Origin: Micromonospora tarapacensis
Lineage (GTDB): Bacteria; Actinomycetota; Actinomycetes; Mycobacteriales; Micromonosporaceae
Assembly: GCF_019697375.1 (NCBI RefSeq)
Contig: NZ_JAHCDI010000004.1
Span: forward strand, 4,823,324 to 4,887,323
DNA length: 64,000 nt
Direction: 5' to 3'
In this document: positions 12,208 through 57,970 of the stretch, piece by piece
Layout: each line of letters begins with the position of its first letter
Numbering within the stretch: position 1 is the first letter of the stretch
Position numbers and translations under genes: made by a program
The notes under the pieces: generated by a model
Database searches by the model: none
What the model saw: the letters and a program-made list of their open reading frames with translations, nothing else
Told to the model about the DNA's origin: nothing

Positions 12208-12704
12208 AGCGCCTTCACGTGGTCGAAGGGTTCGGCGCAGGCGCGGCAGCGCCACAGCGCCTTGCAGGCGGTGGAACCGAAGCGGCTGAGCTGCTCGGTC
12301 TCCGGCGACCCGCAGCGCGGGCAGCGCACGCCCAGGGTCAGCGGTACGGCGCCGCCGCGCCGGACCGGGGCGGGTGGGGCGATGCCGGCGGCGGCCAGCT
12401 TGGCCCGCCCGGCGTCGCTGATCCAGTCGGTGCTCCACGCCGGGCTGTGCACCGTGCGAACCTCGGCATCCGGATGACCGGCCACGGCCAGCGCGCGGCG
12501 GATGTCGGCCCGGATGACGTCCATCGCCGGGCAGCCGGTGTAGGTCGGGGTGATGGTCACCACGACCCGGCCGGTGGCCGCGTCCACTTCCACCGACCGC
12601 AGGATGCCCAGGTCGTCGATGGTGACCACCCGGATCTCCGGGTCCACCACCGCCGCCACGGCCTGCGCTGCGGGGCTCCGCTGCGCTGCACTCCTCGCGC
12701 TCAC
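12204..12704 (-). CDS. paaD: Phenylacetyl-CoA epoxidase maturation protein (PaaD)
   Basis: This 166-residue DUF59/MIP18-type protein is needed for assembly of the epoxidase. It has the DUF59 block VVDPEIRVVTIDDLGILRSV and TPTYTGCPAMDVI, then a C-terminal zinc-ribbon-like part with CPRCGSPETE and CRACAEPF. The first 14 residues, VSARSAAQRSPAAQ, are not part of the family. They are encoded by a degenerate copy of the repeat found in the paaB-paaC junction, so the start codon itself comes from the repeat. GTGA overlaps join it to paaC and paaE. Confidence 0.94.
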   Translation of the reverse strand: MSARSAAQRSPAAQAVAAVVDPEIRVVTIDDLGILRSVEVDAATGRVVVTITPTYTGCPAMDVIRADIRRALAVAGHPDAEVRTVHSPAWSTDWISDAGRAKLAAAGIAPPAPVRRGGAVPLTLGVRCPRCGSPETEQLSRFGSTACKALWRCRACAEPFDHVKAL

Positions 12705-13435
12705 CAGCGCGCACCCGGATGGGCTCGGTGCAGCACCTGCATCTCCGCGAGCAGGTACGACAGGTGCTCGGTGTGCAGCCCGTCGCGCCCGCCCGCCGGC
12801 ATCCAGGCGGAGTCCGGCACGGTGAGCGTCGCCTCGGCGAGCACGGCGCCGACGGCGGCGTCGAAATCGGCCCGCAGGGCGGCCGGGTCGACCGGCGCGT
12901 CCGGCTGCGCGGTGAACAGCTCGTGGGCGTACGGCAATATCTGGTCGACGGCGGCCTGCACCCGCCGGTGCGACTCCTCGGTCCCGTCGCCCAGCCGCCT
13001 GACCCAGAGTGCGGCGTGGTCCAGGTGGTACGCGGACTCCTTGCGTGCCTTGGCGCCGATCGCGGCCAGCCGCTCGTCCCGGCACCCGGCCAGCGCGGTG
13101 TAGAGCGGCAGCTGGTAGGCCGACAGGACGAGCAGTTTCGCCATCGTCACCGCGAAGTCGCCGTCGGGCAGCTCGACCAGCAGGCAGTTGCGGAACTCCC
13201 GGTCGTCGCGCAGGTAGGCCAACGCGTCCTCGTCCCGGCCGGCACCCTCCAGCTCGCCGGCGTACGACAGCAGGAGCCGGGCCGCGCCGAGCTGGTCCAG
13301 GGCGATGTTGGCCAGCGCGATGTCCTCTTCCATCTCCGGCGCGCGGGTGGTCCACTCGGCCAGCCGCTGCGCCGCGATCAGCGCGTCGTCGCCGAGGGCG
13401 AGGGTGAAGGCGAAGGGCTCACTCCTCGCGCTCAC
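12701..13435 (-). CDS. paaC: Phenylacetyl-CoA epoxidase structural subunit (PaaC)
   Basis: This 244-residue ferritin-like protein lacks a full di-iron site and supports PaaA in the epoxidase. Family segments include ALGDDALIAAQRLAEW, EDIALANIALDQLGAARLLL, and RKESAYHLDHAALWVRRLGDGTEESHRR. The first seven codons (VSARSEP) derive from the end of a repeat element; the family-like sequence begins at FAFTLALGDD. Its GTG overlaps the stop of the preceding 20-codon linker ORF as GTGA. A GGAG eight bases upstream, also inside that element, can serve as its ribosome-binding site. Confidence 0.95.
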   Translation of the reverse strand: MSARSEPFAFTLALGDDALIAAQRLAEWTTRAPEMEEDIALANIALDQLGAARLLLSYAGELEGAGRDEDALAYLRDDREFRNCLLVELPDGDFAVTMAKLLVLSAYQLPLYTALAGCRDERLAAIGAKARKESAYHLDHAALWVRRLGDGTEESHRRVQAAVDQILPYAHELFTAQPDAPVDPAALRADFDAAVGAVLAEATLTVPDSAWMPAGGRDGLHTEHLSYLLAEMQVLHRAHPGARW

Positions 13436-13494
13436 AGGGCCGTCTCCGTTCGCGACTGCGGGGCTCGCAAACCCGGCTCACTCCTCGCGCTCAC
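13432..13494 (-). CDS. Linker mini-ORF between paaB and paaC (repeat element copy A)
   Basis: This 20-codon ORF encodes [20 protein letters not shown]. Its GTG overlaps the paaB stop and its TGA overlaps the paaC GTG, both as GTGA, so ribosomes can pass from paaB through it to paaC. It opens with GTGAGCGCGAGGAGTGAGCC and has GGAG near its 3' end at good distance to the paaC start. Two near-identical copies occur at 50940-51064. The peptide is probably unimportant; the coding register and end signals appear to be what is kept. That it is translated is inference. Confidence 0.6.
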   Translation of the reverse strand: MSARSEPGLRAPQSRTETAL

Positions 13495-13811
13495 AGGTGG
13501 GCCGTGCCTTCTGGCACCTCGTAGAAGGTGGGGTGGCGGTAGACCTTGTCAGCGGCCGGGTCGAAGAAGGCGTCCTTCTCGTCCGGGCTGGAGGCGGTGA
13601 TCACGCTCGCCGGCACCACCCAGATGGAGACGCCCTCCTGGCGGCGGGTGTAGAGGTCGCGGGCGTTGTGCAGGGCCAGCCTCGCGTCGGGCGCGTGCAG
13701 GCTGCCCACGTGGGTGTGCGCCAGCCCGCGCCGGGCGCGGACGAAGACCTCCCAGAGCGGCGAGGGATCCTCCCCGCCGAGCCGACCGGTTCGCTCGCCA
13801 CGCTCGCTCAC
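13491..13811 (-). CDS. paaB: Phenylacetyl-CoA epoxidase subunit B (PaaB)
   Basis: This 106-residue protein bridges the PaaAC units. It has the family blocks [25 protein letters not shown] and [19 protein letters not shown]. The N-terminal [17 protein letters not shown] lies before the conserved domain and looks like another repeat-derived start segment, similar to the short ORF VSERSGRT at 29168-29194. The GTG at 13811 overlaps the paaA stop (GTGA). The longer open frame upstream lies inside paaA. Confidence 0.94.
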
Positions 13812-14863
13812 GCCGCCACCCTTTCCTTGTTCCGCCGCTTCGCGGCGTAGGCCGCGGCGGCCTCGCGCACCCAGGCACCCTCGGTGTGGGCGCGGCGCCG
13901 GTGCGCCATCCGCTCCCGGTTGCACGGGCCGTCACCGGAGATGACCCGCATCAACTCGTCGTAGTCGGGCTGGGTGAAGTCGTACGCCTGGCGCTCGTCG
14001 TTCCAGCGCAGCTGCGGGTCGGGGATGGTCAGCCCGAGCACCTCCGCCTGGCCGACGCACATGTCCACGAAGCGCTGGCGCAGCTCGTCGTTGGTGAAAC
14101 GCTTGATCTTCCACGCCATGGACTGAGCGGAGTGTGTCGAGTCGCCGTCCGGCGGGCCGAACATGGCGAGCGACGGGTACCACCAGCGGTCCACCGAGTC
14201 CTGGGCCATCGCCTGTTGCGCCGGGGTGCCGTGCGCGAGGGTGTGCAGGATCTCGTAGCCCTGGCGCTGGTGGAACGACTCCTCCTTGCAGACGCGGATC
14301 ATGGCGCGGGCGTACGGGCCGTAGGAGCAGCGGCACAGCGGCACCTGGTTGACGATCGCCGCCCCGTCCACCAGCCAGCCGATCGCGCCGACGTCGGCCC
14401 AGTTCAGGGTGGGGTAGTTGAAGATCGAGCTGTACTTCTGCCGGCCGCCCAGCAGCAGGTCGACCAGTTCGTCCCGGCTGATGCCGAGAGTCTCGGCGGC
14501 GGCGTAGAGATAGAGGCCATGACCGGCCTCGTCCTGCACCTTGGCCAGCAGGATCGCCTTGCGTTTGAGCGACGGGGCGCGGCTGATCCAGTTGCCCTCC
14601 GGCTGCATGCCGATGATCTCGGAGTGGGCGTGCTGGGCGATCTGCCGGATCAACGTCCGCCGGTACGCCTCCGGCATCCAGTCGCGTGGCTCGATCTTCT
14701 GGTCGGCATCGACGACCTCCGCGAAGTACGCGGCGAGGTCCGCACCCGGCCCGGCGGTGCCCCGCTCGTGCTCCGCGGCCGCACGAAGCGCCGCCTCCGC
14801 CGCCTCGACCTCGCCGAGCAGGCCGCCGGGCGGGTCCTCGCCCGGGAAGTCATTGCCATACAT
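13808..14863 (-). CDS. paaA: Phenylacetyl-CoA epoxidase oxygenase subunit (PaaA)
   Basis: This is the catalytic di-iron subunit, about 351 residues from the ATG at 14863, which epoxidises the ring of phenylacetyl-CoA in aerobic phenylacetate breakdown. Di-iron ligand regions are visible as [37 protein letters not shown] and [14 protein letters not shown]. It is the first gene of paaABCDE. The other paa genes (CoA ligase, hydratase, ring-opening and thiolysis steps) are not in the window. A perfect inverted repeat about 30 bases upstream may be an operator. Confidence 0.97.
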
Positions 14864-49719: not shown

Positions 49720-50294
49720 CAGCGCTGGCCGGCCGGCGCGGGCGACTCCGCGACGATCCGCTCGACGATCGGTCGCAGGCCGTCCTGGGTGACCGCGGCC
49801 CGGATCACGGTGGCGATCCGGCCTTCCCGGTCGAGCACGACGGTGGCCGGGATGGTGTTCGGGGGAATCTCCATGGCGAGGGCCAACCGGCTGCCCGGGT
49901 CGAAGATGCTCGGGTAGCTGACCCGGCCCTCCTCGAAGGCGATGGCCTTGTCCCGGCTGTCCTGCACGTTGATGCCGAGGAAGGTGACGCCGGAGTCCCT
50001 GGTCGCCTGGTAGGTGTCCTCCAGGTCGTCGGCCTCGGCGCGGCACGGCGCGCACCAGGAGCCCCAGAAGTTGACCACGACGACCTGGCCACGCTGTTCC
50101 GCCACGTCGTACGATCCGCCGCCGAGCAACTCCCCGACGATCCTGGGAGCGGCGGACCGCTGCTCCGGTGCGCACTCGACGATGCCGCCGGCGCTGGCGC
50201 ACTCCGGCTCCCGGCCGTCGGATGTGCAGGCGACCAGGGCCACCGTGGCGGTCACGGCGACGAGCAGACCGGCGGCCGGCCTCCGGGGGCCCAC
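49719..50294 (-). CDS. resA: Thioredoxin-like lipoprotein ResA
   Basis: This 191-residue membrane-anchored thioredoxin has a lipobox VALVAC (C23) and the active site W-C81-A-P-C84 in NFWGSWCAPC. The conserved cis-Pro region is NTIPATVVLDREGRI. It reduces the CXXCH cysteines of apocytochrome c so haem can be attached by ResBC, drawing electrons from CcdA. GTG 50294 begins one base after the histidine phosphatase stop region. Two further Cys (ECASAGGIVEC) lie before the domain. Confidence 0.92.
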   Translation of the reverse strand: MGPRRPAAGLLVAVTATVALVACTSDGREPECASAGGIVECAPEQRSAAPRIVGELLGGGSYDVAEQRGQVVVVNFWGSWCAPCRAEADDLEDTYQATRDSGVTFLGINVQDSRDKAIAFEEGRVSYPSIFDPGSRLALAMEIPPNTIPATVVLDREGRIATVIRAAVTQDGLRPIVERIVAESPAPAGQR

Positions 50295-50295
50295 G

Positions 50296-50943
50296 TCAGG
50301 CTCCCTTGGCCGTCCGCGCGGTCGGCGACATCGCCACCAGGTGCGCGGCCGGTTCGGAGTAGCCGATGCCGACGACCTTGGCGCCGTCGAAGTGGAACGT
50401 GGTGAGCGAGGCCAACGAGCACTGGCGGCGACGCGGGTCGTGCCAGAGCCGCTTGCGCTCGACGTGTCGACGCAGCGTCCAGATCGGCAGTTGGTGCGAG
50501 ACCAGGACGGCCTCACGGCCCTCGGCGGCGATCCGGGCGGCGTGCAGTGCGGCGAACATCCGCTCGGCGATCATCCGGTACGCCTCCCCCCAGGAGGGGG
50601 TGACCGGGTCGCGGAGCACCCACCAGTTGCGCGGATCGCGGAAGGAACCGTCACCGGGCGAGACCTTCTTGCCCTCGAACCAGTTGGCGCTCTCGATCAG
50701 CCGTTCGTCCACCCCGACCGGCAGTCCGAACTGGGCGGCGATCGGCTCCGCCGTCTGCTGGGCGCGTTCGAGCGGGCTGGCCACCACGTGGACGACCTCG
50801 CGTTCGGCGAGCCCCTGCGCGGCGGCCTTGGCCATCTGGACACCCAGTTCGCTGAGGCGGAACCCGGGCAGCCGGCCGTAGAGGATGCCGCCCGGGTTGT
50901 ACACCTCACCGTGCCGAAGCACGTGGACCACCGTCTTGCTCAC
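50296..50943 (-). CDS. Histidine phosphatase (phosphoglycerate mutase-like) family protein
   Basis: This 215-residue phosphatase has the catalytic LRHGEVYNP near the N-terminus and the second catalytic His in LVSHQLPIWTLR. It is a broad-specificity branch; the substrate is unknown. It lies between hemL and resA. The GTG at 50943 overlaps the TGA of a 21-codon linker ORF, whose AGGGGG about eight bases upstream can serve as ribosome-binding site. Confidence 0.88.
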   Translation of the reverse strand: MSKTVVHVLRHGEVYNPGGILYGRLPGFRLSELGVQMAKAAAQGLAEREVVHVVASPLERAQQTAEPIAAQFGLPVGVDERLIESANWFEGKKVSPGDGSFRDPRNWWVLRDPVTPSWGEAYRMIAERMFAALHAARIAAEGREAVLVSHQLPIWTLRRHVERKRLWHDPRRRQCSLASLTTFHFDGAKVVGIGYSEPAAHLVAMSPTARTAKGA

Positions 50944-51005
50944 CGCTGTGTCCCCCTTGTTCGCGACTGCGGGGCTCGCAAGACCGGCTCACTCCTCGCG
51001 CTCAC
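50940..51005 (-). CDS. Linker mini-ORF, repeat element copy C
   Basis: This 21-codon ORF encodes VSARSEPVLRAPQSRTR followed by GTQR. Its GTG overlaps the TGA of copy B and its TGA overlaps the GTG of the histidine phosphatase, both as GTGA. It begins with GTGAGCGCGAGGAGTGAGCC and carries AAGGGGG shortly before its stop, a Shine-Dalgarno-like sequence for the next gene. Over its first 47 bases it is identical to copy B and differs from copy A (13432-13494) at two positions. Confidence 0.6.
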   Translation of the reverse strand: MSARSEPVLRAPQSRTRGTQR

Positions 51006-51064
51006 CGCAGCCCCCTTGTTCGCGACTGCGGGGCTCGCAAGACCGGCTCACTCCTCGCGCTCAC
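51002..51064 (-). CDS. Linker mini-ORF, repeat element copy B
   Basis: This 20-codon ORF encodes VSARSEPVLRAPQSRTR then GLR, starting two bases after the hemL stop codon TAG. Its TGA overlaps the GTG of copy C. It and copy C stand head to tail between hemL and the histidine phosphatase gene. It also ends with an AAGGGGG ribosome-site-like tract before the next GTG. Translation is inferred from register and signals. Confidence 0.6.
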   Translation of the reverse strand: MSARSEPVLRAPQSRTRGLR

Positions 51065-51066
51065 CG

Positions 51067-52404
51067 CTACCCCCCGTGACCTGCCGCTGCCGCCGCGTTG
51101 GCCGCCGCGGGCAGCGCGGCGGCGATCTGTTCCAGGGCGGCGGCGTCGATCGCCGCCGAGACGAACCAGGACTCGAACGCACTCGGCGGCAGGTAGACCC
51201 CGGCGGCGAGCATCGCGTGGAAGAACGCCTTGAACGCGGGCACCTGCTGGGTGCGTGCGCTGTCGTAGTCGACCACGTCGGCATCGGTGAAGAAGATCGA
51301 GAACATGCTGCCCGCGTACGACAGCCGGTGCGGAACCCCGGCGACGGCCAGCGCGTCGGTGGCGAGCTTGCCCACGACGGCGGCGGTGGCGTCCAGCCGA
51401 CGGTAGAGCGCGTCGTCGGCCAGCCGCAGGGTGGTCAGGCCGGCCGCGCAGGCGAGGGGATTTCCGGAGAGGGTGCCGGCCTGGTAGACGGGACCGGCCG
51501 GGGCCAACCGCGACATGATCTCCGCGCGCCCGCCGAACGCCGCGGCGGGCAGGCCGCCCCCCATGACCTTGCCGTACGTGAGGAGGTCGGCGTCGACCGG
51601 ATCGAGGCCGTGCCACCCGGATCGGGAGACCCGGAACCCGGTCATCACCTCGTCGACGACGAGCAGCGCACCGTGCGCGTGCGCGATCCTCGCCAACTGT
51701 CCGTTGAAGCCGTCGCGGGGTGCCACCACGCCCATGTTGCCCGGAGCGGCCTCGGTGATCACCGCGGCGATGTGCGGCCCCTCCGCGGCGAACGCCTCCT
51801 CGACGGCGGCGACGTCGTTGTAGGGAAGCACGATCGTCTCGCCGGCCGCCGCGCCGGTGACCCCCGGCGAGTCGGGCAGGCCCAGGGTGGCCACGCCCGA
51901 GCCGGCGGCGGCCAGCAGGGCGTCGACGTGCCCGTGGTAGCAACCGGCAAACTTGATGATCTTCGAGCGGCCGGTGTACCCCCGGGCCAGCCGGATCGCC
52001 GACATGGTCGCCTCGGTGCCGGAGTTGACCAGCCGGACCTGCTCGACCGGGGTGCGGGCGACGATCTCGGCGGCCAGCTCGACCTCACCGGGAGTGGGGG
52101 TGCCGAAGCTGGTCCCCTTCGCGGCGGCGGCCTGCACGGCCGCGACCACCTCGGGGTGGGCGTGCCCGAGGATCAGCGGCCCCCAGGAGCAGACCAGGTC
52201 GACGTAGCGTCGGCCATCGGCGTCGTGAAGCCAGGGCCCCTCGCCCCGGACCATGAAGCGTGGTGTGCCGCCGACCGCCCGAAAGGCGCGCACGGGGGAG
52301 TTCACCCCGCCCGGCACGAGGGCTCGGGCGCGGTCGAACAGGGCCTCTGAGGCCGGCGCGTCGACCGGGTAGCGGTCGGATCCGGCGGGGAACACCTCGG
52401 TCAC
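51067..52404 (-). CDS. hemL: Glutamate-1-semialdehyde 2,1-aminomutase (HemL)
   Basis: This 445-residue PLP enzyme makes 5-aminolevulinate, the committed precursor of haem and corrinoids. The PLP lysine is K279 in [45 protein letters not shown] and [12 protein letters not shown] are family blocks. GTG start at 52404, in a divergent region shared with the STAS gene. Downstream come the linker ORFs, the phosphatase and the cytochrome c genes, so haem synthesis and use are grouped. Confidence 0.97.
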
Positions 52405-52891: not shown

Positions 52892-53449
52892 TCAGGACGT
52901 GGCGCCCCAGCGGGCCTGCTCCAGGACGGCTACGGTGCGAGCGACGGTCTCCGGGTCGTCGCCGCCCCGCAGCATGGTCGTGGCCTCGTCCACCGCATCG
53001 GTCAACAGCCGCCACTGTGCGTCGCGCTCACGCACCATCTCCGACTGCGTCGTCAACTGGCGGGTCTTGGTCCACAACTCCACGAAGACGGACACCTTGG
53101 CCCGTAGCACCCAGGGATCGAACGGCTTGGTGAGGTAGTCCACCGCACCGGCCGCGTAGCCGCGCAGGGCCAGCTGGGCGTCCCGGTCGGCGGCGGTCAG
53201 GAAGATGATCGGGACGTGCCGGGTACGCTCCCGCCGCTTGATGTGGCTGGCCGTCTCGAAGCCGTCCATGTCGGGCATCTGGGCGTCCAGCAGGATCACC
53301 GCGAAGTCGTCCACCAGCAACTGCTTGAGCGCCGCCTCACCGCTCTCCACCGCGACCGACTGCACCGGCAACCCCTGGAGGATCGCCTCCAGCGCCATCA
53401 GGTTCTCCCGGCGGTCATCGACCAGCAGCGCCTTCGCCACCTGCGTCAC
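52892..53449 (-). CDS. Response regulator, receiver domain with short C-terminal helix
   Basis: This 185-residue protein has a receiver domain (residues ~6-122; D11-D12 pocket, D55 acceptor in LLDAQMPDMDG, K in YLTKPFDP). A ~60-residue helical tail without a DNA-binding domain follows. It is coupled to the hybrid kinase through a GTGA overlap, so it is the likely phosphotransfer partner. Output is probably protein-protein, for example to the phosphatase/STAS switch nearby. Confidence 0.9.
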   Translation of the reverse strand: MTQVAKALLVDDRRENLMALEAILQGLPVQSVAVESGEAALKQLLVDDFAVILLDAQMPDMDGFETASHIKRRERTRHVPIIFLTAADRDAQLALRGYAAGAVDYLTKPFDPWVLRAKVSVFVELWTKTRQLTTQSEMVRERDAQWRLLTDAVDEATTMLRGGDDPETVARTVAVLEQARWGATS

Positions 53450-56400
53450 GAGCCCTCCTCGGTACGGCTGCCACTGATCCAGGACCCCATCAGCTCGATC
53501 AACTCGTCGAGGTCGACCGGCTTGGTGATGTAGTCGCTGGCCCCGGCCACGATCGCCGACTCCCGGTCACCCGGCATCGCCTTGGCGGTCAGGAAGACGA
53601 TCGGCAGGTCCGCGAAACGGTGGTTACGCCGGATCTGCCGGGTCGTCTCGTACCCGTCCTGGTCGGGCATCATGGCATCCATCAGGACGATGTCGACCTC
53701 CGGGTGTTCGGCCAGCAGGCGCACCCCGTCGTTGCCGTTGTCGGCGTAGAGCACGGTCATGCCGTGCAGTTCGAGCGCGCTGGTCAGGGCGAACACGTTC
53801 CGCACGTCGTCGTCGACGATCAGCACGGTGGCACCGTCCAGTTGGCGGGTCTGCGGGGCCTCCGGCGGCACCGGCAGGAACTCCATCGGCGGCATCAGCA
53901 GCGACGACGGCAGTCCGGCCCGCTGCGGCGACGGTGGCGCCGGCGACACCACCGCGTCCGGCGCCAGCACGTCGGGCAGGTAGAGCGTGAACGTCGAGCC
54001 CTGACCGGGCGCCGAGGCGACGGTGATCGTGCCGCCGATCAGGCGGGCCAGATCCCGGCTGATCGACAGGCCCAGCCCGGTGCCGCCGTAGCGGCGGCTG
54101 GTCGTGCCGTCCGCCTGCTGGAACGCCTCGAAGATCAGCGACAGCTTGTCGTCGGAGATGCCGATGCCCGTGTCAATCACCGTGAAGGCGATCACCTGCC
54201 GCGCGTTGGTCAGCGCCGGCACATCGAAGACCGCGTGCTCCGGGGCGCGGGAGATGCGCAGCGTCACCGCGCCGCTGTCGGTGAACTTGACCGCGTTGGA
54301 CAGCAGGTTGCGCAGGATCTGCTGGAGCCGCTGGGCGTCGGTGACCACCGCAGCCGGCATGTCCTTGCCGATGCGCACCTGGAAGTCCAGGCCCTTGTCG
54401 TCGGCCTGCGGGGCGAACGCCTGCTCGACGTAGTTGCAGATCTCGGTGAACTGCACCTCGGCCGGCTCGACGTCCATCCGCCCCGCCTCGATCTTGGACA
54501 GGTCGAGGATGTCGTCGATCAGGCGCAGCAGGTCCGACCCGGAACCGTGGATGGTCCGGGCGAACTCGATCTGCTTCGGCGTGAGGTTCTGCTCGGAGTT
54601 CTCCATGAGCAGCCGGGCCAGCAGCAGCAGGGAGTTCAGCGGCGTACGCAGCTCGTGGCTCATGTTCGCCAGGAACTCCGACTTGTACGCCGAGGCCCGG
54701 GTGAGCTGCTGCGCCTTGTCCTCCAGGCCGAGCCGGGCCAGTTCGATCTCCCGGTTCTGGGTCTCGATGTTCGCCTTCTGCGCGGAGAGCAGTTTGGCCT
54801 TGTCCTGTAGTTCGGCGTTGGTCCGCTGCAACTCCGCCGATTGCTCCTGCAACTCGTGCGCCAGCCGCTGCGACTGGGCCAGCAGCTCCTCGGTACGACG
54901 GTTGGCCTGAATGGTGTTGACCGCGATGCCGATGGTGGAGACCAGCCGTTCCAGGAACGACAGGTGCAGCTCGGAGAAGGGCGTGACGGTGGCGAACTCG
55001 ATCACGCCGAGCAGTTCGCCCTCGAAGAGGACGGGCAGCACGACCAGGTCGGCCGGTGGCGTGTCGGCCAGTCCGGAACGCAGTGTGATCCGCGCGTCCG
55101 GCACCGCACCGACCCGGATGGTGCGCCGGGAGAGTGCGGCCTGACCGACCAGCCCCTCGCCCGGTCCGAAGGTCACGTCGTGGCCCCGGGAGACGTAGCC
55201 GTACGAGGCGGTGAGGCGCAGCCGCATCACCCCTTCGGAGTTGTCCACCAGGAAGAACGCGCCGAGCTGCGCATCCACCAGCGGTGTCACCTCCTGCATG
55301 ATCATCCGGCACACCTCGCCGAGGTCACGCTGGCCCTGCAACAGACCACCGATGCGGGCCAGGTTGGAGTCCAGCCAACCCTGCTCGGCGTTCTTGTGGG
55401 TCGTCTCCCGCAGGGTGACGATCATCTGGTTGATGTTGTCCTTCAGCTCGGCGACCTCGCCCTGCGCCTTCACCGCGACCCGTTGGGTGAGGTCGCCCCG
55501 GGTCACCGACGTCGAGACCTGGGCGATCGCCCGCAGCTGGGTGGTCAGCGTCGAGGCGAGCTGGTTGACGTTCTCGGTGAGATCCCGCCAGGTTCCGGAG
55601 ACACCCTTGACCTGTGCCTGACCGCCCAGCTTGCCCTCGGTGCCCACCTCGCGGGCCACCCGGGTCACCTCGTCGGCGAACGACGACAACTGGTCCACCA
55701 TCGTGTTGACGGTGTTCTTCAGCTCCAGGATCTCGCCCTGCGCGTCGACGGTGATCTTCTGCGACAGGTCGCCGTTGGCGACCGCCGTGGTGACCGAGGC
55801 GATGTTCCGCACCTGGCTGGTCAGGTTCGACGCCATCGAGTTCACGTTGCCGGTCAGATCCCGCCAGGTGCCCGAGACGCCCTTGACCTCGGCCTGGCCA
55901 CCCAGCTTGCCCTCGGTGCCCACCTCACGGGCCACCCGGGTCACCTCGTCGGCGAACGACGACAACTGGTCCACCATCGTGTTCACCGTCGACTTCAACT
56001 CCAGGATCTCACCCCGCGCGTCGACCGTGATCTTCTGCGACAGGTCACCCTTCGCCACCGCGGTGGAGACCTGGGCGATGTTGCGCACCTGGGCGGTCAG
56101 GTTCGACGCCATCGAGTTCACGTTGTCGGTCAGATCCCGCCAGGTGCCGGCGACGCCGCGCACCTGGGCCTGACCGCCGAGGTTGCCCTCGGTGCCCACC
56201 TCACGGGCCACCCGGGTCACCTCGTCGGCGAACGACGACAACTGGTCCACCATCGTGTTCACCGTCGACTTCAACTCCAGGATCTCACCCCGGGCGTCGA
56301 CCGTGATCTTCTGCGACAGGTCACCCTTCGCCACCGCCGTGGTGACCGAGGCGATGTTCCGCACCTGGCTGGTCAGGTTCGACGCCATCGAGTTCACGTT

Positions 56401-57816
56401 GTCGGTCAGATCCCGCCAGGTGCCCGAGACGCCCTTGACCTGGGCCTGACCGCCCAGGTTGCCCTCGGTGCCCACCTCGCGCGCCACCCGGGTCACCTCG
56501 TCGGCGAACGACGACAACTGGTCCACCATCGTGTTCACCGTCGACTTCAACTCCAGGATCTCACCCCGGGCGTCAACGGTTATCTTCTGGCTCAGGTCGC
56601 CCCTGGCGACGGCGGTGGAGACCTGGGAGATGTTGCGGACCTGGCTGGTCAGGTTCCCGGCCAGTTGGTTGACGTTCTCGGTGAGGTCCCGCCAGGTGCC
56701 GGAGACGCCGCGCACCTGGGCCTGGCCGCCGAGCTTGCCCTCGGTGCCCACCTCGCGGGCCACCCGGGTCACCTCGTCGGCGAACGACGACAGCTGATCC
56801 ACCATCGTGTTGACGGTGTCCTTGAGTTCCAGGATCTCGCCCTGCGCGGCCACGGTTATCTTCTGCGACAGGTCACCCCGGGCCACCGCCGTGGAGACCT
56901 GCGCGATGTTGCGCACCTGGGCGGTCAGGTTCGACGCCATCGAGTTGACGCTGTCGGTGAGGTCCTTCCAGGTGCCGGCGACGCCCGGCACGTCGGCCTG
57001 GCCGCCGAGCTTGCCCTCGGTGCCCACCTCGCGCGCCACCCGGGTGACCTGCTCGGCGAAGAGCCGCAGCGTGTCGGTGAGCGAGTTCATCGTGTCGGCC
57101 AGTTCGGCGACCTCGCCGCGAGCGCTGACGGTGATCTTCTGGGACAGGTCGCCCTTCGCCACCGCGGTGGCCACCTGGGAGATCGACCGCACCTGGCCCG
57201 TCAGGTTCGACGCCATGGTGTTCACCGAGTCGGTGAGGTCCTTCCAGGTGCCGGCGACGCCGCGCACGTCGGCCTGGCCGCCGAGCTTGCCCTCGGTGCC
57301 CACCTCACGGGCCACCCGGGTCACCTCGTTGGAGAAGGACGAGAGCTGGTCGACCATCGTGTTGACGGTGCGACCGATCCGCAGGTACTCACCGCGCAGC
57401 GGCCGGCCGTCGATCTCCAGCGCCATGTGCTGGGTGAGGTCACCGTCGGCGACCGCGACGATGACCCGGGCGATCTCCGTCGTGGGTCGGCCCAGATCGT
57501 CGATCAGGGAGTTGACCGCCCGCTGGCCCTCCGCCCAGGAGCCGTCCAGCCCTTCCTCGTCGAGCCGCTCGGTCAGCCGACCGTCGCGGCCGACGATCCG
57601 GCTGATCCGGCGCAGGTCCAGATGTTGCCGCTCCTGGAGCGACACCACGTCGTTGAAGGCGTCCGCCACCTCGCCGGCCACGCCCGACCGGCGGGGCAGC
57701 CGCGCCTTGAGGTCGCCGCGACGGATCCGCCGCAGCGCCTCCGCCAGCTCGGTGAGGACCGCCTCGTGGTCGGCGGCAGAGGTATCCGCGGTCACCGACT
57801 GTCTCGCCGTGGTCAT
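53446..57816 (-). CDS. Hybrid sensor histidine kinase with seven tandem HAMP-type repeats
   Basis: This large soluble-looking kinase is about 1456 residues from ATG 57816 (GAGCGAGGA upstream). Order: an N-terminal HAMP-like part, then seven 92-residue repeats at residues 165-808, a GAF domain (~850-1000), a coiled coil, and HisKA with H1054 in [11 protein letters not shown] HATPase with GTGLGLSIS and a C-terminal receiver with acceptor D1380 complete it. No membrane helix is visible, so it should sense a cytoplasmic signal. Repeat-rich HAMP kinases of this plan resemble fungal group III (Nik1-type) osmosensor kinases. The next gene downstream is its likely partner. Confidence 0.93.
55393..57324 (-). 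repeat. Seven tandem 276-base coding repeats (HAMP-type units)
   Basis: The sequence encoding [12 protein letters not shown](K/N)LGGQA recurs seven times at exactly 276-base intervals inside the hybrid kinase gene. Units 3-6 are the most alike at the DNA level. The high identity implies recent duplication or gene conversion and makes the copy number prone to change and to misassembly. Confidence 0.9.
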
Positions 57817-57970
57817 CATTCCTCGCTCACCTCGGGGTCCACCGGCTCGCGCCGGCCACCCCATCATTGTCCCCGTGACCTCGAAACCGCCACGGCACAC
57901 CACCGTCCAGTACCAGAGACCTGGCGGTGATCAGCTTGGCAGCGGACGGGTGTCGGTGGAGGATACGAGG
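57817..57970. promoter_or_regulatory. Divergent promoter region, hybrid kinase and PP2C phosphatase
   Basis: These 154 bases separate the leftward kinase gene from the rightward phosphatase gene, so shared control is likely. GGAGG at 57958-57962 serves the GTG at 57971. No operator palindrome was identified. Confidence 0.45.

Follow-up and report, generated by a model that had tools for sequence, protein, structure and literature searches.

Two short repeats stand head to tail between hemL and a histidine phosphatase gene of Micromonospora tarapacensis, and a third lies between paaB and paaC in the same window, by which is meant the whole stretch of 64,000 nucleotides (64 kb) that was analyzed. 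The locus raises the question of how such a sequence came to lie between neighboring genes, and in what manner the genes on either side of it may remain connected in translation. The answer that we consider very probable is a short, non-autonomous mobile repeat of the Micromonosporaceae, which inserts at RTGA start codons and carries a coupled mini-ORF together with a Shine-Dalgarno (SD) site.

All units of the window lie on the minus strand. Unit 1 (59 bp, 51006..51064), which has a DNA match in its own genome, begins with the exact 5' half of the repeat (51045-51064), its first GTGA standing 2 bases past the TAG of hemL (51067..52404, minus strand; Pfam Aminotran_3), and its mini-ORF of 20 codons extends from 51064 to the TGA at 51004-51002. 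An SD-like AAGGGGG (51011..51017, minus strand) precedes the next GTG, at 51005, from which unit 2 (62 bp, 50944..51005; exact 5' half at 50986-51005) follows head to tail. The mini-ORF of unit 2 has 21 codons and extends from 51005 to the TGA at 50942-50940, where its stop overlaps the GTG of the downstream phosphatase gene (50296..50943, minus strand; Pfam His_Phos_1); here again AAGGGGG (50952..50958, minus strand) stands before the phosphatase GTG, at 50943. Unit 3 (59 bp, 13436..13494) occupies the junction of paaB (13491..13925, minus strand; Pfam PaaB) and paaC (12701..13435, minus strand; Pfam PaaA_PaaC). Its GTGA overlaps the paaB stop, its 20 codons end in the GTGA of the paaC start, and GGAG is found at 13444-13447. 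The first-pass annotation had thus described correctly the places and strand of the three copies, the 20, 21 and 20 codons with each stop in the TGA of the next GTGA, the candidate ribosome sites and the distance from the hemL TAG. It had also assigned a two-position difference within the first 47 bases to the two hemL-side copies; these are in fact identical there, and the two differences set the paaB/paaC copy apart from either of them.

The count of three copies stands, yet two further pieces had been overlooked. One is a fourth exact 5' half (13416..13435, minus strand), which forms the start codon and N-terminus of PaaC (MSARSEP); orthologous paaC genes without it begin at the same GTGA. 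The other, at the paaC/paaD junction (12668..12704, minus strand), is the remnant of a sister subfamily with GCAGCGCAGCGG in its middle, and supplies, in frame, the N-terminus of PaaD (VSARSAAQRSP). Pfam supports a PaaD domain for the gene that follows, and fuller versions of this sister subfamily stand at paaC/paaD in loci L232, L235, L238, L239 and L244. Within the window, the 20-base 5' end has 4 exact occurrences and one more with 3 mismatches, against a chance expectation of 0.01 at up to 3 mismatches. The usual unit, of about 56-62 bases, consists of GTGAGCGCGAGGAGTGAGC, a short variable spacer, TGCGAGCCCCGCAGTCGCGAAC, a G/A-rich tail and RTGA. A scan of positions 50000-52000 against Rfam at E 1 gave no match. 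The window also codes, at 53446-57903 on the minus strand, for a sensor-like protein of 1485 aa with many near-identical repeats, which are perhaps, as we presume, HAMP repeats.

The comparison of orthologous junctions, some empty and some bearing one to three units, establishes that the repeat inserts, as the first-pass annotation had proposed for a unit placed between cistrons. The hemL/phosphatase junction was compared in the 30 genomes of the genus that matched best out of 121: 17 loci are filled, with 1, 2 or 3 units, and 13 are empty, as in L195, where the site reads ...GGGGGGTAGCGGTGAGTAAG. When 26 of these loci are placed on a tree, the pattern of filled and empty junctions requires at least nine changes, five of them forced by well-supported (starred) branches; the four loci outside the tree (L189, L190, L193 and L205), which have no hemL anchor, all carry units. 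At paaB/paaC, parsing succeeded in 28 of 30 loci: 12 are empty, 9 have a unit, 6 carry an insert of a different kind at that GTGA, and a deletion derivative of 41 bases (2 mod 3) is present in 1. Outside these 28 are L221, which is cut by a contig end, and L224, with one 60-base unit. Single units of the first family at this junction measure 59 bases in four loci and 60 in two. A junction of M16-peptidase-like genes, parsed in 7 of 30 loci, has units in 4 (one of which, L255, is a variant that the pattern scored as none) and is empty in 3.

In the genome of the window this last junction (G000:C3:725504-725613; L009, L250) holds two units between two genes which we take to code for M16 peptidases, and the second unit forms the N-terminus of the downstream M16-like protein, from a TTG start. 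Tandem arrays would grow and shrink, and partial copies would turn into the N-termini of proteins. For annotation this is a warning, as several N-termini, those of PaaC, PaaD and the M16 peptidase, derive from a repeat.

The repeat is dispersed well beyond these junctions. In its own genome (6.9 Mb, 4 contigs), window included, 15 places match the 5' pattern and 25 the 3' core with up to 2 mismatches, and the backwards controls gave 0 in both cases. A scan of the genomes of named species returned at least 120 stretches; among the 80 titles listed, 73 were of Micromonospora, 3 of Plantactinospora, 3 of Phytohabitans and 1 of Micromonosporaceae. The exact 3' core occurs in 54 of 150 genomes of the family, which represent 16 of the 44 genera sampled; within the window's genus every one of the 16 genomes has it, in 6 to 34 copies each. 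At the level of the class it was present in 3 of 197 genomes, all three of the window's genus, and in 0 of the 194 genomes outside the genus, a sample that presumably includes mycobacteria. When the whole unit was searched at E 0.001 in a sample of the order, again probably with mycobacteria in it, 16 of 150 genomes matched, of which 15 share the window's genus and the remaining one its family. In the samples searched, the repeat is found only in the Micromonosporaceae, the family across which the first-pass annotation had recommended a search. Variants with a longer G/C-rich spacer were noticed in L100, L109, L111 (Phytohabitans), L134 and at G000:C3:951610 (L033); three parsed 89-base units among such variants are still 2 mod 3.

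The position of the units relative to genes was counted in 104 of 123 arrays, the other 19 having too little flank. By frame calling, the next gene lies on the same strand in 97 of the 104, and in 71 the TGA of the first GTGA is the stop of the upstream gene. By comparison, 4.4% of random positions lie between two different same-strand genes, and of 510 other GTGAGC sites only 29 coincide with an upstream stop. In 22 arrays, some of which follow another unit, frame calling gave no gene of the same strand directly upstream, and in 4 the upstream frame runs 14 bases into the unit before it stops. At the other end, 126 junctions that differ in their flanks were read, with orthologues from different species counted one by one; in 117 of them an open gene downstream shares the frame of the final DTGA. 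Copies scattered without relation to start codons, which the first-pass annotation had named as speaking against its proposal, are not what these counts show. Its placement of the unit at stop/start junctions agrees with the 71 arrays; the target proper, however, is the start codon, since no same-strand upstream gene was called in those 22 arrays and since hosts such as hemL, whose TAG ends before the GTGA, have no stop/start overlap.

Part of the sampling relied on a pattern with GTGA in it: of the 218 units parsed below, 149 come from named loci found by the exact 5' half, and as this half includes GTGA, copies lacking it are under-sampled in those loci. In the own genome, where the 3' core was searched as well, 27 places were read, the second units of arrays included, and in 14 of them the upstream gene stops at the TGA of the unit. 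The exceptions there include two in-frame intragenic copies, one copy upstream of a start and one without a downstream gene called (C4:4219588). The two intragenic copies, at G000:C4:34944-34981 (L028) and G000:C4:4284363-4284406 (L027), lie inside open genes and are read as an internal peptide.

Insertion also leaves a trace in the bases that precede the first and the last GTGA. From 170 arrays, 126 pairs with distinct flank and tail were obtained, orthologous junctions of different species again counting separately. At position -1 the identity between flank and tail is 0.63, against 0.31 in shuffled pairs (z 8.3, with shuffles that do not keep the relatedness of the copies); the z values are 3.8 at -2, 7.0 at -3, 2.9 at -4 and 2.1 at -5, and identity is not clearly raised farther upstream. 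Identical runs of at least 3 bases are found in 41 of the 126 pairs, where about 8 are expected, and the 71 single-unit arrays alone give z 6.4 at -1 and 4.1 at -3. The first bases of the tail are much alike from site to site, mostly A-C-G followed by purines that include A-G-G or G-G, while positions -1 and -3 vary by site. The identity at -1 to -5 therefore indicates a duplication of about 7-8 bases ending in GTGA. The first-pass annotation had suspected a target duplication, and rightly so, but its four-base length, GTGA only, is rejected by the signal upstream of GTGA; the duplicated stretch is made of about 3-5 bases plus GTGA. Target-site duplication, a criterion for MITEs, is in this statistical sense present.

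The length of the units follows a rule of phase. There were 289 hits apart from the own-genome loci, to which the window belongs; 272 of them began near the 5' end and had enough flank, and 268 of these started with DTGA; removal of 44 without the 3' core pattern and 6 without a tail start left 218 parsed units. Their lengths are 2, 0 and 1 mod 3 in 164, 48 and 6 cases, and frame 0 is open in all 218. A length of 2 mod 3 places the stop of the ORF inside the next GTGA, and one of 0 mod 3 lets the ORF run on into the host gene. The ratio is 161:47:6 among the 214 units that are distinct when 60 bases of context are included, and 49:15:2 among 66 units whose loci were fetched only through a host protein, so that the bias is not an effect of the search pattern. 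As the copies are related, descent from a small number of founder lengths (59, 62, 56) could explain part of it.

How the end of the unit is held in phase can be read from its two variable parts. Where the 3' core is offset by 1 mod 3, the tails are 2, 0 and 1 mod 3 in 128, 41 and 4 units; where the offset is 2 mod 3, they are 1, 2 and 0 mod 3 in 36, 7 and 2. Spacer and tail lengths thus compensate for one another, keeping the unit end mostly in phase. The 3' half is consequently read in two frames, giving different peptides in different subfamilies, and a functional peptide is rejected on this ground; the peptide is a by-product, as had been supposed at first pass. Judged from the sequence, the rule of length would preserve the -4 overlap and with it the coupling of the cistrons, in line with the first-pass proposal. 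The 48 fusion-phase units of the 218 fit an N-terminal extension as well as they fit coupling, which counts against our explanation.

The tails carry, in addition, the ribosome site that had been ascribed to the unit. In 182 of 218 tails an SD core is found at a distance of 4-12 bases from the start that follows, compared with a mean of 60 and a maximum of 79 in 200 shuffles. A native SD core ahead of the first unit is present in only 66 of 124 junctions, which again counts against the preferred explanation.

The following course of events is proposed on this basis. The repeat would target mostly the RTGA of overlapping stop/start pairs within operons, and its insertion would duplicate about 7-8 bases ending in GTGA, such that the upstream gene would keep its stop codon and the displaced downstream gene its start codon. 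The copied GTG would open the unit, and ribosomes destined for the host gene would start instead on an ORF of usually 18-21 codons. An SD site brought along by the unit, usually 7-9 bases ahead of the restored start, would then come into play; as the length of the unit puts the end of the ORF in the TGA of the restored GTGA, ribosomes could restart there on the host gene. Translation of the mini-ORF, its coupling to the next cistron and a near-neutral effect on the host gene are what the arrangement of signals in the DNA suggests.

Other readings of these observations deserve to be weighed. The element may have had little target preference, selection having removed those insertions that broke operons. 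In gene-dense genomes an insert of phase 1, or one within a gene, would be costly; in-frame intragenic copies exist, as a filter of this kind would leave them; and the named sample, drawn by a GTGA-containing pattern, is blind to copies elsewhere. Partly compatible as it is with insertion at start codons, this alternative appears rather unlikely, since the duplicated flank ends at GTGA even without an upstream overlap (hemL/phosphatase) and since many harmless intergenic copies away from starts would be predicted, whereas few of the 27 places in the own genome are of that sort. Positive selection for a regulatory cassette, whose copy number and SD site would tune or uncouple the downstream gene, is compatible with mobility and agrees with the 0-3 copies at one junction among relatives, with the two unrelated families at the same paaB/paaC GTGA, and with the report that a MIRU-bearing senX3-regX3 intergenic region drives senX3-independent expression of regX3 (PMC4213456). 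The host genes are, however, diverse, and presence at hemL/phosphatase is not clustered on the tree beyond shuffled labels (308 of 500 shuffles were as low), which fits units that are often gained and lost and not a switch that is maintained; a cassette maintained in this way is distinctly unlikely.

A REP-like element mobilized by a Y1 (RAYT/IS200-type) transposase would likewise be a short dispersed repeat behind a fixed tetranucleotide, and a Y1_Tnp protein occurs in 5 of 12 other genomes of the genus. The search for Y1_Tnp gave 0 matches in the window's own genome, which nevertheless carries the repeat. Single strands fold no better than shuffles (z -0.34 as RNA, +0.77 to +1.04 as DNA), by which the hairpin of REP/RAYT systems is rejected for this unit. 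Duplication of the flank, moreover, is not expected of Y1 transposase chemistry, and the involvement of such an enzyme is very improbable. If, with no insertion at all, every gene had simply duplicated its own start region in tandem, this would account for the bases that tails share with upstream flanks and for the common tails of units in one array; it is barely credible, as the core is nearly identical at unrelated junctions and in different species, is absent from empty orthologous junctions, and resembles other cores more than it does its own host genes. A mobile repeat directed to start codons hence remains the preferred reading. No transposase was linked to the repeat, which counts against this reading, and among 31 isolated 5' halves, several of which are full units with a differing core, none has a matching 3' core within 6 kb downstream in loci of up to about 8 kb. 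The only possible terminal inverted repeats, seen by eye, are CGCGA/TCGCG.

The different insert at paaB/paaC represents a second family of the same genus, here called F2, which starts with RTGAGCGAGC, ends near GAGCGNAGCGAGGTGGCGGC-RTGA and has an SD-like GAGGTGG tail. It occupies the paaB/paaC GTGA in 6 of 28 loci (L225, L226, L238, L241, L242 and L244), with lengths of 80, 71 and 68, all 2 mod 3. Its 3' end has 26 matches in one relative (G005), compared with 0 to 4 in each of 15 other genomes, and the family has apparently undergone a recent burst there. Sixteen of the 26 matches were fetched (L320-L335), and the first unit was parsed in 13 of the 15 listed; the lengths are 80, 77, 71, 65 and 50, and 12 of the 13 are 2 mod 3, the exception being a stretch of 127 bases that appears to span an older remnant. 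Of the parsed loci, 11 have an upstream gene on the same strand, and in 10 of these the RTGA of F2 overlaps the stop of that gene. F2 therefore resembles the first family in its RTGA start on an upstream stop, its SD-like tail, its 2 mod 3 lengths and its use of the same paaB/paaC GTGA, and differs from it in having usually an 80-bp unit and no similarity beyond chance (894 of 1000 shuffles align as well).

A third group of units was retrieved with what we presume to be the core pattern of the mycobacterial MIRU. This MIRU-like pattern is present in 173 of 396 genomes of a genus of the same order, probably Mycobacterium, with a period that is often 53 bases and otherwise 46 to 57. This occurrence of the pattern (L336-L365) is wider than a statement of the type 'only in M. 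...' would have it. In 36 of 40 units parsed by a nearest-DTGA rule, which can choose a wrong start, the lengths are 2, 0 and 1 mod 3 in 28, 5 and 3 cases, and in L338, which is among these 36, a stop interrupts the frame. In alignments of one unit each, with the MIRU identity taken from the presumed pattern and the 53-base periods, 659 of 1000 dinucleotide shuffles did as well as the first family with the MIRU-like unit, and 139 of 1000 as well as F2 with the MIRU-like unit. This last similarity is not significant and at most suggestive, and sequence homology among the three families is rejected, as no pair exceeds its shuffles to significance. We may tentatively suppose, without expecting it, that linkers targeting start codons form a general class, of which at least three families of no significant similarity in sequence (the first, the 80-bp one and the MIRU-like one) share RTGA ends, mostly 2 mod 3 lengths and a built-in SD site, and which might be served by one insertion machinery that recognizes start-codon regions.

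Among the known systems, REP/BIME elements are likewise short, dispersed, extragenic and clustered, but the Micromonospora repeat has no stable hairpin, stands at start codons with an open frame, and is found in a genome in which no Y1 transposase was detected. Rickettsia palindromic elements are small repeats able to sit in frame in proteins. The two in-frame intragenic copies and the N-termini of PaaC and PaaD recall them, although the present repeat is not palindromic and lies mainly at cistron junctions.

The closest likeness is that to MIRU, whose insertion target is worded as 'DTGA'. An open-access search found, among the papers listed by title and abstract opening, no description of the repeat in Micromonospora, and the first-pass annotation had known of no described element of this kind. 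The passages on MIRU in a 2025 review that cites Supply et al. 1997 nevertheless use the same terms, stating that MIRU appear mobile, insert at start codons, couple an internal ORF at a spacing of -4 and likely do little harm to the host gene (PMC12548453). MIRU lengths of 77 and 53 bp have been reported (PMC4213456), both 2 mod 3, like the 56, 59, 62 and 80 of the Micromonospora families. A junction that measures 279-358 bp in the M. tuberculosis complex is reported to be only 6-20 bp long in species without MIRU-VNTR (PMC2734929), and these short junctions resemble the empty sites described above. In Micromonospora we find the same insertion at start codons inside operons (71 of 104 stop overlaps, 117 of 126 in-frame starts), a predicted internal ORF with the -4 overlap (phase 2 in 164 and an open frame in all of 218 units), and tandem copy-number variation with 0, 1, 2 or 3 units at one junction. 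The differences lie in the sequence, which has no detectable homology to the MIRU-like unit, in the distribution, which in the samples searched covers only the Micromonosporaceae, and in the duplication, which reaches 3-5 bases upstream of GTGA. The kind of element is thus already known, since MIRU have been described likewise, and it is the Micromonospora family that is new, with no detectable kinship in sequence. With its filled and empty sites, its duplicated target and its rule of frame, it is a family of repeats outside the mycobacteria that inserts at start codons, and by which MIRU-like movement and ORF translation become testable in soil bacteria.
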